Positions 5,435 to 12,382 of a stretch of DNA of 58,052 bases are shown one piece after another (the stretch's first letter is position 1; every line of letters begins with the position of its first letter). The DNA is from Desulfobulbaceae bacterium (GTDB taxonomy: Bacteria; Desulfobacterota; Desulfobulbia; Desulfobulbales; Desulfocapsaceae): positions 1 through 58,052 of the forward strand of contig JAFLKM010000045.1 of assembly GCA_019163335.1 (NCBI GenBank), in the 5' to 3' direction. A program made the position numbers and the translations under genes. Below the pieces are notes generated by a model that was not told where the DNA came from, made no database searches, and worked only from the letters and a program-made list of their open reading frames with translations.

Positions 5435-7603
5435 TTAAGAACAGTGGACGGGAAGTTCAATGGTAAAGGACGTTCCATTTTCCCTGCTGCTTTGACAGGA
5501 AATTGTGCCATGGAGTTGGGTTACGATATTCTGGACTATGGAGAGCCCCAATCCGGAATTGCCTGCCGCGTTCGTACTGGTTTTGGTGGAGACAAAGGGC
5601 TCAAAGAGGGTCTCGGCGATCTCCTCAGCTATGCCGGGGCCGTCATCACGAACGGTGATGATAATCCGATCCTGGCTGAGTGCCCCTTTGTTGTCACGGA
5701 GCATGGTGGTGGGGATTTCTTTTTGGTGGGTCTCAATATAAATATTTCCACCTTCCTGCAGAGCTTCCGCGCTATTTTTGATGAGATTGATAATAATTTG
5801 TTTCATGTCATCGGCGGGAGCCTTTATGAGAGGCAGGTTGGGGGCAGGAGAAAAGTGGATCTGGATCTTGGTTGTGTATAAAATTGATCTGGCAAGAATT
5901 TTGGTTACATCTGATAACAGATCATTAAGATTTATTTCTGTCCATTCCTGCCTGGCGGTTGGGGCAAAATGATATAATTGCTGGACAATGGCAGAAATCC
6001 TGTTGATCTCGTCATCGAGAATTTTCAAGTCATCTTTGAGTGTTGCCGACTGGGTAAACTTGAGCTCGAAGATCTTGAAATAGTTTTTAATAATGGCCAG
6101 AGGATTATTGATTTCGTGGGCAATCTTGGCCGCAGCCAGAGCCGTTGCGGCCAATCGTTCTTTATGGATTTTCTGGGCTTGTTTTTCTTTAATTTCAAGA
6201 AGATGAATGGACATTGCAGTCTGATTTGCGATCAAACGCAAGATTCTCGTATTGTCCAGGAGTTTCGCTTCCTTCATGCCAAGGACAATCACCCCGATGG
6301 GTATTTCTCCAGCGGCCATGGGGATATAGGCCATTCCTTTCTGGCCCATCAGGTCCAGGAGCTGCAGGTCCGCCAAGCCGAGCTCGCTGGTGGCGCTGCG
6401 GGCATGCGGGTTAATGATTTTCTGCTCGCTGAGAGTCCTGGCAAGGAGGCTGGAATCAACAGTATTGGAAATCACCAGATTCTGAACCAGTTCCTGATAG
6501 CGGTTCTGTGAAGAGGTGCAGCCAAAAAGCGTCTGAGTCTCGGAATCCTGGAGGAAGAACACGATGGTGTCGATTTCCAGAAGGATATTCAGGGTCTGCT
6601 CGGTGGCCTTCAGAATAGATTCCTGATCTTTGCATCGGAGCAAATTTTCCAGGAAAGAGGTTAAGAGGGAGCTCTCTTGGACCTTGCTTACAAGACGGAG
6701 TGAATGTTTGTCCAGGCCTGCCGACTTTGCTTCTTCTTTAAGGTCCTCTTTATCAACCGGGGTTTGAATGGGCAGATCGAGACTTGCGGCGATTTTTTCA
6801 ATTTCCTCATGGGCACCAGAGATGATCGACTGCATCTGCTCGCTGGCAAGTCCGAGAAGTTCATGCCCAAAGGCGAGCAGAGAGGGATCCAGAGAGGCAC
6901 TTTTGCTGAGCTTATGGGCCAGGCTGGTAATTTTGACGAGAGGGAAACCGTTTTTGACGCGGGCCACGGGCTCGTGATGATAGAGAACGGCATCGGCCAT
7001 GAACGAGTTAAGTTTCCAGTGCTTGATAAGCCAGGCCCCAGCCTCGCAATGGGTTAATCCGATTTGTTGCCTTTCAAGGTCACAGGTATCGCACTGATTG
7101 TCAATCTGGGAGAGGATTGATTTGTACTCTCTTGGGAAATTGGTATAGAGCACTAACTTGCCAAGATTGAGAAGCAGGCCTGATATATAGGCTTCTTCAA
7201 TGTTGGTGTATTGGATTTGCTGGGCAATTCTTTTGGAAAAAATAGCACAGGAAAATGAGTTCCACCAGAAACGGTCCATGGAAAAGGAGCCATTCTGTTT
7301 TATTCCGTTAAACACATGGTGTACGGAGGCGGTGACGGCAATATTTTTGACCGCATCGGCTCCAAGATATAGGACAGCTCGTTCAATGCTGGTGAATTTT
7401 CCTTCCAGGTTGAAGTAGGCTGAGTTGACAAGACGTAATGCCTTGGCGCTGATGGCTGGATCCTGAGCTATGACCTTGACAAGCTCCTTGATGTCAAAAT
7501 CTTCCTGTTCTTCAAGGGCGATAACCTGAAGCAGCACCTGGGGCAGGGAAGGAAGGCTTGTTGAGTCCTGCAGGCGGGCAAAAAGTTGAGCGTTATTGGT
7601 CAT
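5435..7603 (-). CDS. HDOD-GAF histidine kinase
   Basis: A 722-residue soluble kinase. Residues 10-260 form an HDOD domain (typical PSLPQV and QDPAISAKALRLVNSA), 325-470 look like a GAF domain, and 480-720 hold the kinase core with H496 in KIAHEINNPLA, DDGPGI and GLGLSI. HDOD is a catalytically dead relative of HD domains often found in bacterial signalling. The combination with a kinase is common in Desulfobacterota; the signal is unknown. It has the same orientation as the hybrid kinase at 3281-5218, separated by 216 bp without an evident terminator, so the two could act together. Confidence 0.92.
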   Translation of the reverse strand: MTNNAQLFARLQDSTSLPSLPQVLLQVIALEEQEDFDIKELVKVIAQDPAISAKALRLVNSAYFNLEGKFTSIERAVLYLGADAVKNIAVTASVHHVFNGIKQNGSFSMDRFWWNSFSCAIFSKRIAQQIQYTNIEEAYISGLLLNLGKLVLYTNFPREYKSILSQIDNQCDTCDLERQQIGLTHCEAGAWLIKHWKLNSFMADAVLYHHEPVARVKNGFPLVKITSLAHKLSKSASLDPSLLAFGHELLGLASEQMQSIISGAHEEIEKIAASLDLPIQTPVDKEDLKEEAKSAGLDKHSLRLVSKVQESSLLTSFLENLLRCKDQESILKATEQTLNILLEIDTIVFFLQDSETQTLFGCTSSQNRYQELVQNLVISNTVDSSLLARTLSEQKIINPHARSATSELGLADLQLLDLMGQKGMAYIPMAAGEIPIGVIVLGMKEAKLLDNTRILRLIANQTAMSIHLLEIKEKQAQKIHKERLAATALAAAKIAHEINNPLAIIKNYFKIFELKFTQSATLKDDLKILDDEINRISAIVQQLYHFAPTARQEWTEINLNDLLSDVTKILARSILYTTKIQIHFSPAPNLPLIKAPADDMKQIIINLIKNSAEALQEGGNIYIETHQKEIPTTMLRDNKGALSQDRIIITVRDDGPGIAEEIAETLFEPFVSTKTSTNAAGNSGLGLSIVQNIVTQLHGTISCQSSRENGTSFTIELPVHCS

Positions 7604-8016
7604 AATGGACGTTGGGTATCACTGCAAATGATTGACATTACCAGTTTGCAAGGGTGGCGGAAAAATGCTGACAGCTGAGCAAACTGTATTGACCCGTTCA
7701 AAACCTTGGGAGATTCCATGGTTGCTAACGTTGTGCTTCCTTCAAAGAGGGGTGAGGGAAAACCGGATGTCCAGATTCCAACAGACACAGATGCTTTCTT
7801 TTAGCGTATAACGGCTTAAATATTGTCTGTTTTTGTTGCGTCGATTAAATTACTATCCCAAAGGGAAACGTTAGTCAAATGTAATATTATTAAAATATCA
7901 TTTAACTGGTTGTTTTTTGAAAGTATTTAGTGATGATCCCATCATTGTGATGGCTCGAAATTTCTTCACTCGTTCTTTATTGCCGGAATCCGTATGTTTT
8001 TCTAAAAGGATAACTG
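7604..8016. other. 413-bp intergenic region, no gene seen
   Basis: This A/T-rich gap separates the divergent HDOD kinase (minus) and the selenoprotein gene (plus), so it should hold both promoters. No -10/-35 pair of good quality, riboswitch or RNA gene was recognised. A short ATGAT-CCC-ATCAT inverted repeat sits near 7933. Confidence 0.6.
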
Positions 8017-8235
8017 ATGAAGATTACTATTAAATATTGTACTAAGTGAAATTATCAACCCCGTGCTTCCAGGCTGGAAGAGGAGTTGAAGAGTCTGGCA
8101 GGTGTGGAGTGCGTATTGATTCCCTCCACCGGTGGAGTATTTGAGGTTGCGGTTGATGGCAGGCTTATCTTTTCCAAAAAAGAGCAGAAACGATTTCCTG
8201 AAGAGGGAGAAATTCTGGCGCTGTTAAGCACTTGA
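8017..8235 (+). CDS. SelW/Rdx-like selenoprotein (in-frame UGA)
   Basis: Reading ATG at 8017 through the TGA at 8047-8049 gives a 72-residue protein ending at TGA 8233. It begins MKITIKYCTKU, continues NYQPRASRLEEEL, and holds a GGVFEVAVDG and LIFSKK stretch before RFPEEGE. This is the thioredoxin-like Rdx family (SelW/SelT/SelH), whose redox motif CxxU matches CTKU here, as do the GG.FEV and lifSK....RFP blocks. AAAGGA lies 7 nt before the ATG. A hairpin with SECIS features follows the TGA. A plain stop after 10 codons would leave the conserved downstream frame unexplained. The family is thought to act in thiol redox control; the substrate is unknown. The gene is convergent with the DtxR-type regulator. 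Confidence 0.88.
8056..8088 (+). promoter_or_regulatory. Bacterial SECIS-like hairpin after the UGA codon
   Basis: Starting 7 nt after TGA (8047-8049), the RNA can fold as CAAC/GTTG (8056-8059 with 8085-8088), then CC/GG, an internal loop, and CTTCC/GGAAG (8066-8070 with 8076-8080) around the loop AGGCT. The apical loop lies about 21 nt after UGA and has a G among its first two bases, both expected for SelB binding. Drawn by eye. Confidence 0.75.
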
Positions 8236-8292
8236 GTGGTTTTAGAGCGGGCTTGAGCCTGAAGGAGTCTCTATATTATCGAGTTTTTCCGG

Positions 8293-8808
8293 TCAACCCT
8301 TTTCCTCCTGCAGATCTGGATCTCGATGGCAAGCTGAGATGCAGGCGTTGCAGTTGGTTCGGGTCTTGCCTTCCTTGCAGTAGTCGGCAAACCCTTTTAG
8401 CAGGTCATTGCCCCCGCGGGGACAGATTTTGAGAAATTCAATAAAAGAGATCATGTGCGAAATGACCTCTGGCGGGGCGGTATGTTCCACCCGGCAGGCC
8501 CCATTCTCGGCGACATCGGGATCTACGGCCAGGACTTCGATGAAAAATTGTTTTAGGGCATCGTGGCGAAAAATGACATTCTGCGCAGCCTCTTTTCCCT
8601 GTGCGGTCATGGTTATGGCCTCGTAGGGTGAGTAATTAATCAGTTCTCTTTTAGACAGGGCGCGCAGGGCCTCGGTTACCGAGGCGCGGCTGACTTGCAG
8701 GCGCGCGGCAATCTCTTTGCTTCTGGCGACATGTTTGTCGGCAACAATATGGTAAATTGCCTCCAGATAATCTTCCAGGCTGGCGCTGAGGATATTTTTT
8801 TTGGGCAT
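8293..8808 (-). CDS. DtxR/MntR-family metal-dependent regulator
   Basis: A 171-residue repressor-type protein with an N-terminal winged helix (about 1-70) and a metal-binding dimerisation domain. The ligand positions of the family are visible: D13 and E16 (as in MntR), H82, and the C105-E108-H109 group in ACRVEH. The cysteine at that place is DtxR-like, where MntR has glutamate. The C-terminal tail carries C129, C144, C153, C156 and C160, which is unusual and could hold another metal or Fe-S site. I chose ATG 8808 over GTG 8811, with GGAG upstream. The gene is divergent from recN and near mntP, but the metal sensed cannot be decided. Confidence 0.88.
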   Translation of the reverse strand: MPKKNILSASLEDYLEAIYHIVADKHVARSKEIAARLQVSRASVTEALRALSKRELINYSPYEAITMTAQGKEAAQNVIFRHDALKQFFIEVLAVDPDVAENGACRVEHTAPPEVISHMISFIEFLKICPRGGNDLLKGFADYCKEGKTRTNCNACISACHRDPDLQEEKG

Positions 8809-8957
8809 CACGGGCTTTGCTCCGACGTTTAGATCCGATTATAAACGAAAACATATTTTGCCTGCTCATTTTTTGGCAGAATAGCCTTGTTTCAGAAGTG
8901 CGTCAAGGCAGATCATGGAGATGGTTCAGATTATGTGTATATACTAGGAACAGCAAG

Positions 8958-10688
8958 ATGCTATGTGAGCTAAAGGTTGAAAATCTCGCTTTAATTGAAT
9001 CCCTACACCTCCAGTTTGACCAGGAAAACGGCAGTTCTCTGGTGGTCATGACAGGGGAGACTGGTGCCGGTAAATCGATTATGCTTCGGGCAGTGCATTT
9101 GCTCATGGGGGGACGCGGGTCCATGGACTGGATTAGAAGCGGGGCCCAGCAGTGTGTGGTGGAAGCACTGTTTATGGTGAACGCCGATCACCTTGCTCTG
9201 CTTGATACCTTGCGGGATGCTGGCCTGGAAGATGGCTCCTCGGTGATTCTCAAACGGGTACTTACCAGTACCGGCAAGAGCAGGCACTATGTCAATGGGT
9301 CCTTGGCCACGGCGAAGATGGTCTCTTTGCTGGCGGACAATCTTCTCAATGTTGCCAGTCAGCATGATCATCAGCAGTTGCTGCAGCCGGCCCTGCACCT
9401 TGATTTTCTTGATACCCTGGGTGAACACTGGCCGCAACGGGCTCAAGTGCAGCGAATTTTTTCCAAGTGGCAACAGAAGAAAGAAGAGCTGGCCTCTCTT
9501 CGTCAGCAGGAGCGAGACAAGGAACAGCGACGTGATTTTCTGAAATATCAGCTTGCAGAGATCCACGAGACCTGTCCGCTTTCTGGTGAGGATGAGGAGC
9601 TGGGTCTTGAGAGAAAGCGACTGAAGAGTGCCGATACTCTGATTGCCCTGAGTAAGAAGGTGTATCGTTTTCTTTCCACTACCCTTGCCGATGGATTATT
9701 TGAAGTGCGACGGGATATGGAACAGGCAGTTCAACTTGACGCCCAGGCAGAGGAGCTTGCCGCTGAACTGATCTCGTACAGCTATCAGGCGGAGGATCTG
9801 GTCACCCGATTACGGAGTTATAAGGATTCCCTCGAACATAATCCCGTTCGCCTGGAGCAGGTCAATGAGCGGCTTAATGCCTTGCAGCACCTGAAACGCA
9901 AATATGGCGAGACTCTGGATGTGGTGTTGAGCTTTGCTGCGGCTGCAGAAAACGAGCTGCTGATGATTGATAATATGGACAAAAATATGAATGAGCTGGA
10001 GGCTCATGTAGCCGACCTGGAAAAGGAACTTCAGGGTTTGGCTGAGACTCTTTCAGAGGGACGTCGTCAGACAGCAGAACATCTGGAGAGGGCTATGTCT
10101 GCGGAGCTTGATTCCCTTGCCTTCCAGCAGTCAGGATTCGAAGTTCGTTTTCTTGAGGAAAACCATGATATCAACGCAGTGCGCAATAGTGGCTGGGATC
10201 GGGTGGAGTTCTTTTTCTCGGCCAATCCCGGTGAGCCGGCCCGGCCGTTGGCCAAGGTGGCCTCGGGTGGTGAGCTTTCCCGGCTGATGCTGGCGCTGAA
10301 ATGTCTGCTCGCCAAAAAAGATATGGTGGAAACCGTGATCTTTGATGAGGTGGATGCCGGTATTGGCGGTGAGGCCGCCGAGGCCGTCGCCCGCAAAATT
10401 CAGGAGCTGGCCACCCATCATCAGGTCTTCTGTGTCACCCATCTGCCGCAAATAGCCGCCCGCGGCAATATTCATTACCGGGTGGCCAAGCAACAGGAGC
10501 AAGGACGCACCCATTCATCCTTTTCACTGCTTGCTCAGGAGCAGCGGGTGGATGAGCTGGCGCGGATGCTCGCCGGGGATTCGGTTTCATCCCAGACCCG
10601 GGCCTGGGCCTTGGAGCTTCTCGCCAAGGGTGCAAATGGTCAAGTTCTTAAGAAGGGACAGGAAGAAAGGACGACTGTGTGCCAGTGA
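8958..10688 (+). CDS. recN: DNA repair protein RecN
   Basis: An SMC-like ATPase that acts at DNA double-strand breaks to promote recombinational repair. Walker A GETGAGKS is at residues 33-40, followed by long coiled-coil arms (about 150-380), the ABC signature ASGGELSRL and Walker B VIFDEVDAGIGG. The start at 8958 (MLCELKVENLALIE) matches RecN N termini and has AGGA 8 nt upstream; the frame is open to 8817 but that extension looks non-native. The product has 576 residues against 553 in E. coli. The 3' end overlaps the next gene by 10 bp. Confidence 0.95.
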   Translation: MLCELKVENLALIESLHLQFDQENGSSLVVMTGETGAGKSIMLRAVHLLMGGRGSMDWIRSGAQQCVVEALFMVNADHLALLDTLRDAGLEDGSSVILKRVLTSTGKSRHYVNGSLATAKMVSLLADNLLNVASQHDHQQLLQPALHLDFLDTLGEHWPQRAQVQRIFSKWQQKKEELASLRQQERDKEQRRDFLKYQLAEIHETCPLSGEDEELGLERKRLKSADTLIALSKKVYRFLSTTLADGLFEVRRDMEQAVQLDAQAEELAAELISYSYQAEDLVTRLRSYKDSLEHNPVRLEQVNERLNALQHLKRKYGETLDVVLSFAAAAENELLMIDNMDKNMNELEAHVADLEKELQGLAETLSEGRRQTAEHLERAMSAELDSLAFQQSGFEVRFLEENHDINAVRNSGWDRVEFFFSANPGEPARPLAKVASGGELSRLMLALKCLLAKKDMVETVIFDEVDAGIGGEAAEAVARKIQELATHHQVFCVTHLPQIAARGNIHYRVAKQQEQGRTHSSFSLLAQEQRVDELARMLAGDSVSSQTRAWALELLAKGANGQVLKKGQEERTTVCQ

Positions 10689-11815: not shown

Positions 11816-12382
11816 ATGGATACAATCACTTTAATGGGCATCGCTGTGGCCCTGGCTATGGATGCCTTTGCCGTTGCCCTGGCAACCGGACTTGCCCTGC
11901 CGGTCATGAATGGACGGCACATGTTTCGTCTGGGTTTTCATTTCGGTCTGTTTCAGGCCCTGATGCCGGTCATCGGCTGGCTGGCCGGGATGACGGTGCA
12001 GGCGTGGATATCCTCCTATGATCATTGGGTTGCTTTTTTCCTTCTGATCTTTGTCGGCGGTAAGATGATTTACGAGGCTTTCTTCGACCATGATGAAGAA
12101 AACCTGGAGCGTGATCCTACCCGGGGCTGGTCCCTGATCATGCTTTCGGTGGCAACCAGCATCGATGCATTGGCCGTTGGCCTGACCCTGGCCATGCTCA
12201 ATGTCAGCGTCTGGGTGCCGTCCCTGGTGATTGGATTGACCGCCGGGGTTCTGACGGTGGCGGGCATGCTTCTGGGACGTCGGATCAACGGGATCTGGGG
12301 AAAACGAGTGGAGGTCTTCGGGGGGTTGGTGCTCTGCGCAATCGGGGTGAAGATCCTCCTGGAACAGACTCTGTTTCAATGA
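11816..12382 (+). CDS. mntP: Manganese efflux pump MntP
   Basis: A small inner-membrane protein (188 residues, six hydrophobic helices) of the MntP/YebN family that exports Mn2+. It has the two internal DUF204 repeats, each with an acidic intramembrane motif: MDAFAVALATG near residue 15 and IDALAVGLTLA near 118. The gap from the preceding gene is 63 bp and no yybP-ykoY type manganese riboswitch is visible there. The metal-dependent regulator at 8293-8808 is a possible but unproven controller. Confidence 0.92.
   Translation: MDTITLMGIAVALAMDAFAVALATGLALPVMNGRHMFRLGFHFGLFQALMPVIGWLAGMTVQAWISSYDHWVAFFLLIFVGGKMIYEAFFDHDEENLERDPTRGWSLIMLSVATSIDALAVGLTLAMLNVSVWVPSLVIGLTAGVLTVAGMLLGRRINGIWGKRVEVFGGLVLCAIGVKILLEQTLFQ

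Follow-up and report, generated by a model that had tools for sequence, protein, structure and literature searches.

Among the selenoproteins of the Sargasso Sea set, the SelW-like family was the most abundant (PMC1088965). Closer to the organism studied here, Desulfotalea psychrophila, which belongs to the same order Desulfobulbales, has been listed with a SelW-like selenoprotein since 2006 (PMC1794560). A 2026 review table of prokaryotic selenoproteins includes the SelW-like family as PF10262 with a CxxU motif, and the review calls what SelW-like and similar bacterial selenoproteins do largely uncharacterised (PMC13188914). For MIEN1, a relative in terms of fold, a disulfide potential of -225 mV has been measured, and such SelW relatives are stated, in general terms and not chain by chain, to carry CxxC (PMC3527542).

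Here, a gene of this kind is described in the window, i.e., the whole 58,052-nt stretch of DNA that was analysed. With a probability of roughly 0.96, it is read from the sequence as a stand-alone SelW/Rdx-family selenoprotein gene in which UGA at codon 11 would be decoded as selenocysteine via a SECIS hairpin. It shares with the bacterial SelW-like selenoproteins of the Sargasso Sea study the same CxxU motif, U at the second position and a SECIS element just after the UGA (PMC1088965). The difference between the published bacterial proteins and the window gene lies only in the individual sequence and genome, Desulfotalea being compared by its listing (PMC1794560). In the library searched, no paper was found that pairs the SelW family name with Desulfobulb- or Desulfocapsa.

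Reading frame and family assignment

The frame opens with an ATG at 8017 and is broken solely by the TGA at codon 11, within CTKU, with exactly the coordinates given in the initial annotation (Table 1); 61 residues follow this TGA. The family blocks named in that annotation are present as well (GGVFEV, LIFSK and RFP), and so is a probable ribosome binding site before the ATG, the box AAAAGGA lying 6 nt upstream of the start codon and a purine-rich box being found at about the same position in 12 other same-genus loci. The gene stands alone, with its upstream and downstream neighbours both encoded on the opposite strand. A promoter scan returned 2 sites vs 1.4 expected by chance, and no terminator was found in the scan. 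Altogether, 136 TGA-interrupted frames were detected by scan in the window; when those with a redox-like motif were judged by eye, only selW resembled a known selenoprotein family, and several other TGA-interrupted frames appeared, also by eye, to be ordinary genes extended beyond their stop.

Table 1 Features of the selW-like locus and its surroundings (positions in the window)
Feature	Position	Strand	Remarks
Gene upstream of selW	5435..7603	-	
Probable ribosome binding site AAAAGGA	8004..8010	+	Read from sequence; similar box at same-genus loci
selW-like (Rdx family) predicted selenoprotein gene	8017..8235	+	72 residues plus terminal TGA (8233-8235)
In-frame TGA, predicted to be read as selenocysteine	8047..8049	+	Codon 11, CTKU motif; conserved TGA
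Predicted bacterial SECIS stem-loop	8055..8089	+	-12.7 kcal/mol
Apical hairpin of the predicted SECIS	8066..8080	+	6-bp stem, loop GGC 8072-8074; covarying, low synonymous change
Iron-dependent-repressor-type (DtxR/MntR-like) regulator	8293..8811	-	Pfam; convergent to selW
RecN-like ATPase	8817..10688	+	Pfam SMC_N (RecF/RecN/SMC N-terminal domain)
MntP-type protein	11816..12382		Pfam

Profile searches were carried out with C written for U at residue 11, by which a match is favoured at this one position. In this form, the whole product matched Pfam Rdx (PF10262) with an E-value of 5.7e-22 and 78.1 bits (cut-off 22.6), the NCBIfam equivalog model NF041051 with 100.4 bits (cut-off 88) and the NCBIfam subfamily model TIGR02174 with 64.7 bits (cut-off 34.2). 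Taken by themselves, and so with no help from the motif, the 61 residues downstream of the TGA also pass Rdx (E-value 6e-14, 52.4 bits). NF041051, SelTWH_Campy, is a model for a SelT/SelW/SelH family (seleno)protein in the NCBI library, and the window product exceeds its equivalog cut-off, although the name suggests campylobacteria and the relatives collected here are mostly Desulfobulbales-type MAGs.

Both C8 and residue 11 (with C written for U) are invariant in 28 aligned sequences. The AlphaFold2 model built from 28 sequences reached a pLDDT of 90.1. It begins with a strand (residues 2-8) and a helix (14-28), continues with three strands and closes with two helices, a short one at 54-57 and a C-terminal one at 65-71; CxxU lies at the junction of the first strand and the first helix. 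According to this model, the predicted product has the thioredoxin-like SelW fold. The 23 best Foldseek matches in the PDB are SelW/Rdx-type chains or MIEN1: the top 21 chains come from six bacterial SelW/Rdx-type entries and have TM-scores (query) of 0.80-0.91, after which MIEN1 (0.74) and mouse SelW (0.70) follow. The same fold as in the model is thus seen in 2FA8 (Agrobacterium), 2OBK (Pseudomonas), 2P0G (Vibrio) and mouse SelW 2NPB; the bacterial PDB chains share 32-44% identity with the window product in the aligned part and are longer, with 77-87 residues vs 72. Searching the PDB by sequence gave seven distinct matches, namely SelW-related and hypothetical bacterial proteins, SAV_2001 and C17orf37 (i.e., MIEN1). 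Profile and fold both support the SelW/Rdx identity that had been claimed for this frame.

Conservation of the in-frame TGA

Matches to the selW protein were obtained in 45 of the 58 genomes searched (the own genome included), with no match in the remaining 13. In 44 of these 45 genomes, the match spans codon 11 and contains exactly one TGA; the 45th, single-contig genome G030 (C1:734042-734250), was matched by two pieces with an overlap in the query, of which one contains a TGA, as expected from a frameshift. From the 45 matching genomes, 30 became loci that were read letter by letter, and TGA occupies codon 11 in 30/30; in the other 14 of the 44, the TGA is placed only as somewhere within the match. 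A scan of contigs added 47 further named loci, many of them under the names Desulfobulbaceae, Desulfocapsaceae or Desulfobulbus, with some belonging to other phyla. TGA was present at the set codon 11 in 46 of the 47, locus L098 among them, which was not counted because its match begins at residue 14 and its start was placed by hand.

The 77 loci (30 + 47) yielded 63 distinct coding sequences after removal by hand of L098, of the Cys homologue L099, of L102 with its second TGA and of 11 identical coding sequences. All 63 carry TGA at codon 11, and none carries TAA or TAG there. L099, from an alphaproteobacterial MAG, has TGC at this codon within CTQC, shares 48% identity over 63 columns and aligns across codon 11 without a break. 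A lack of homologues with C or U at residue 11 would have counted against the initial annotation; such homologues were found, with TGA in the 63 sequences and Cys in L099. L102 (2435-2680) is a Desulfuromonadales SelW homologue which shows a second in-frame TGA three codons on from the first (CKQUDYU); two selenocysteines, a mutation or an error would each account for it.

Among 13 same-genus sequences, pN/pS amounts to 0.141 in codons 2-10 and to 0.236 in codons 12-70. These values bear on the idea that a former Rdx gene was broken at codon 11 by a nonsense mutation or a sequencing error, for a recent pseudogene, too, would show one in-frame stop and be intact elsewhere. Purifying selection acts on both sides of the TGA, however, and the same TGA recurs in 63/63 distinct sequences, whose genomes were sequenced independently and represent several phyla; a broken gene is highly improbable. 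A second arrangement, in which a 10-residue leader ended by the TGA precedes an independent downstream gene, would agree with the part after the TGA passing the Rdx cut-off on its own. Such a pair of short frames has hardly any probability: Cys8, which is invariant, and the first strand both precede the TGA, pN/pS is low in codons 2-10, and the alignment of the Cys homologue runs unbroken across codon 11. A single frame continuing through codon 11 is the preferred reading of these data.

The hairpin downstream of the TGA

A stem-loop with the features of a bacterial SECIS element follows the TGA; it is absent from the initial annotation and adds support to the selenoprotein reading. The bSECIS model asks for a loop of 3-9 nt, an upper stem of 4-16 bp, a G in the first two loop positions, a distance of 16-37 nt from the UGA and a minimum free energy of -7.5 or lower (PMC13188914). 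The stem-loop in the window lies within the published ranges, with a loop of 3 nt, a stem of 6 bp, a TGA-to-loop spacing of 22 nt and -12.7 kcal/mol. The six pairs of the apical stem are, from base to tip, formed in 60, 62, 59, 60, 60 and 57 of the 63 sequences. Most informative is the pair between the third positions of codons 17 and 21, which reads TA in 37 sequences, CG in 20, GC and TG in two each, and GT and CA in one each (n = 63). As the pair alters on both sides yet keeps pairing, the change is compensatory at synonymous sites. Out of the 276 third-position pairs of codons 2-26 without codon 11, it has the top mutual information (0.906 vs 0.439 for the next) and the most standard pairs (62 vs 61 for the next, in 63 sequences). 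A Fisher test on the T/C by A/G table, covering 60 of the 63 sequences, gives p = 1.1e-12, a value that overstates the case because the sequences are related. The C-G form of the pair leans to GC-rich genes, yet it is present from a GC3 of 0.40 up.

Additionally, synonymous change is depressed in the hairpin, with pS being 0.103 in codons 17-22 vs 0.535 in codons 12-16 and 26-70 of the 13 same-genus sequences, which is about five-fold lower. This constraint is a further argument against a gene broken at codon 11. Folding energy does not follow suit: the 54 nt from the TGA on fold no lower than synonymous random versions (mean z -0.38, median -0.09), z is negative in 40/63 sequences, and three control stretches elsewhere in the gene give -0.32 to -0.46. 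For the window sequence, 15 of 200 dinucleotide shuffles of a 54-nt stretch fold equally well, and the minimum-energy fold of the 54 nt contains fewer than four of the six hairpin pairs in 16 of the 63 sequences. Since folding energy carries no signal, it is covariation and synonymous constraint that speak for the hairpin. An Rfam search of positions 7600-8900 returned four matches (E-values 1.3-3.9), none of which reaches the gathering score; they belong to unrelated eukaryotic or snoRNA-type families.

Decoding machinery and gene neighbourhood

The own draft genome (3.2 Mb, 103 contigs, completeness 99.42) contains selB (387.5 bits, cut-off 242.25), selD (373.6 bits, cut-off 125) and a tRNA-Sec (70.6 bits, gathering score 47), which ARAGORN likewise reports as SeC with anticodon tca. 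The selD gene (L017, contig C53) itself contains an in-frame TGA, within GUAAK. No selA was found in the draft assembly, neither with TIGR00474 nor with PF03841 even at an E-value of 10. Hence, the search for selA, selB, selC and selD that had been proposed as a check in the same genome came out in favour for selB, tRNA-Sec and selD, but not for selA; a genome devoid of selenocysteine machinery, the other finding that would have counted against the initial annotation, is not what was seen. SepSecS (PF05889) of the archaeal-type route was detected in none of 10 genomes, the own one included.

The missing selA also bears on the notion of a broken gene, with which it would agree. Across the 58 genomes searched (the own one included), 51 gave a selA match, 49 of them above the cut-off. 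The match begins at most 600 bases from the contig start in 12 genomes and ends at most 700 bases from the contig end in five more (G003, G012, G013, G016 and G019), and at one locus (L111) selA adjoins rRNA genes, of which the 5S and part of the 23S were seen. With selA so often at contig ends in this group, drafts can look selA-negative. In the near relative G003, the gene neighbouring selA has a counterpart of 88% identity in the own genome that starts at residue 15 on contig base 1. As this contig begins just past the expected place of selA, the gene is probably missing from the draft through an assembly gap. Two single-contig genomes without a selA match, G020 and G028, consist of about 30% N in the stretch fetched around the neighbouring gene, so that the absence of selA there means little; four further genomes (G004, G022, G026 and G031) gave no selA match.

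Five same-genus relatives (G006, G009, G016, G015 and G011; L125-L129) carry a divergent 99-nt tRNA-Sec-like gene of 58.5-62.3 bits, which has UCA in the anticodon place when its fold is read by eye and is not reported by ARAGORN. The usual 94-nt tRNA-Sec occurs in four of these five as well, only the 99-nt gene being listed for G016. In the own genome, there is no second tRNA-Sec match above the cut-off.

An open frame alone is silent on which residue is inserted, and Trp or Cys could be placed at the TGA by a reassigned code or a suppressor; the additional tRNA-Sec-like gene of some same-genus relatives, with its UCA at the position of the anticodon, might be taken in favour of this. The 63 coding sequences, however, terminate at similar positions, with TGA in 27, TAA in 19 and TAG in 17 cases, so TGA would still act as a stop in these organisms. 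In addition, tRNA-Sec, selB and selD are present in the own genome, which lacks a second tRNA-Sec match above the cut-off, and residue 11 is the Sec/Cys position of the family (PMC1088965, PMC13188914). Insertion of Trp or Cys is accordingly judged very unlikely, if a shade less so than a broken gene or a pair of frames. On the evidence of conservation, selection, machinery and the Cys homologue, all three (pseudogene, separate frames and code reassignment) were rejected.

The mechanism proposed for selenocysteine at codon 11 builds on the anatomy of the gene and on what is established about SelB/SECIS decoding and about the family. A ribosome starting from 8017 would reach the UGA at codon 11, and the hairpin directly downstream would bind SelB carrying Sec-tRNA(Sec), with selenocysteine being inserted in place of termination. 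The 72-residue product would fold as a small thioredoxin-like protein, in which Cys8 and Sec11 (CxxU) would sit in the loop leading from the first strand into the first helix. Cys8 and Sec11 may form a reversible selenenylsulfide and in this way serve as a thiol/disulfide redox site, possibly toward partner proteins.

Between 8017 and 12382, the window contains selW, the DtxR/MntR-type regulator and recN, then a ThiI/NFACT-R-type gene and an MntP-type manganese exporter. The SMC_N-containing frame is one which we take to be RecN, and an in-frame ATG at 8958 is its likelier start. In loci L021-L050, with up to 1.5 kb inspected on each side, a DtxR/MntR-type regulator lies within the fetched stretch in 24/30 and a RecN-like protein in 27/30 (own locus included). 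The order selW - DtxR/MntR-type regulator - recN is kept in many relatives. Based on this kept neighbourhood with a metal-sensing repressor and recN, plus the MntP-type exporter in the window, one tentative and rather improbable suggestion is that the selenoprotein may serve in a response to oxidative or DNA damage that is under metal control, and not as a general redoxin. A shared neighbourhood is no demonstration of shared function; the kept neighbours provide a testable lead on what the family does in bacteria.

The window gene is genuine, but it is expected biology for this lineage, as SelW-like selenoproteins have long been known, also in the order Desulfobulbales. Read in this way, it would be a true selenoprotein gene of a type that may escape a gene search run simply from stop to stop, and its predicted SECIS element offers a clean case of one made visible through covariation at synonymous sites.
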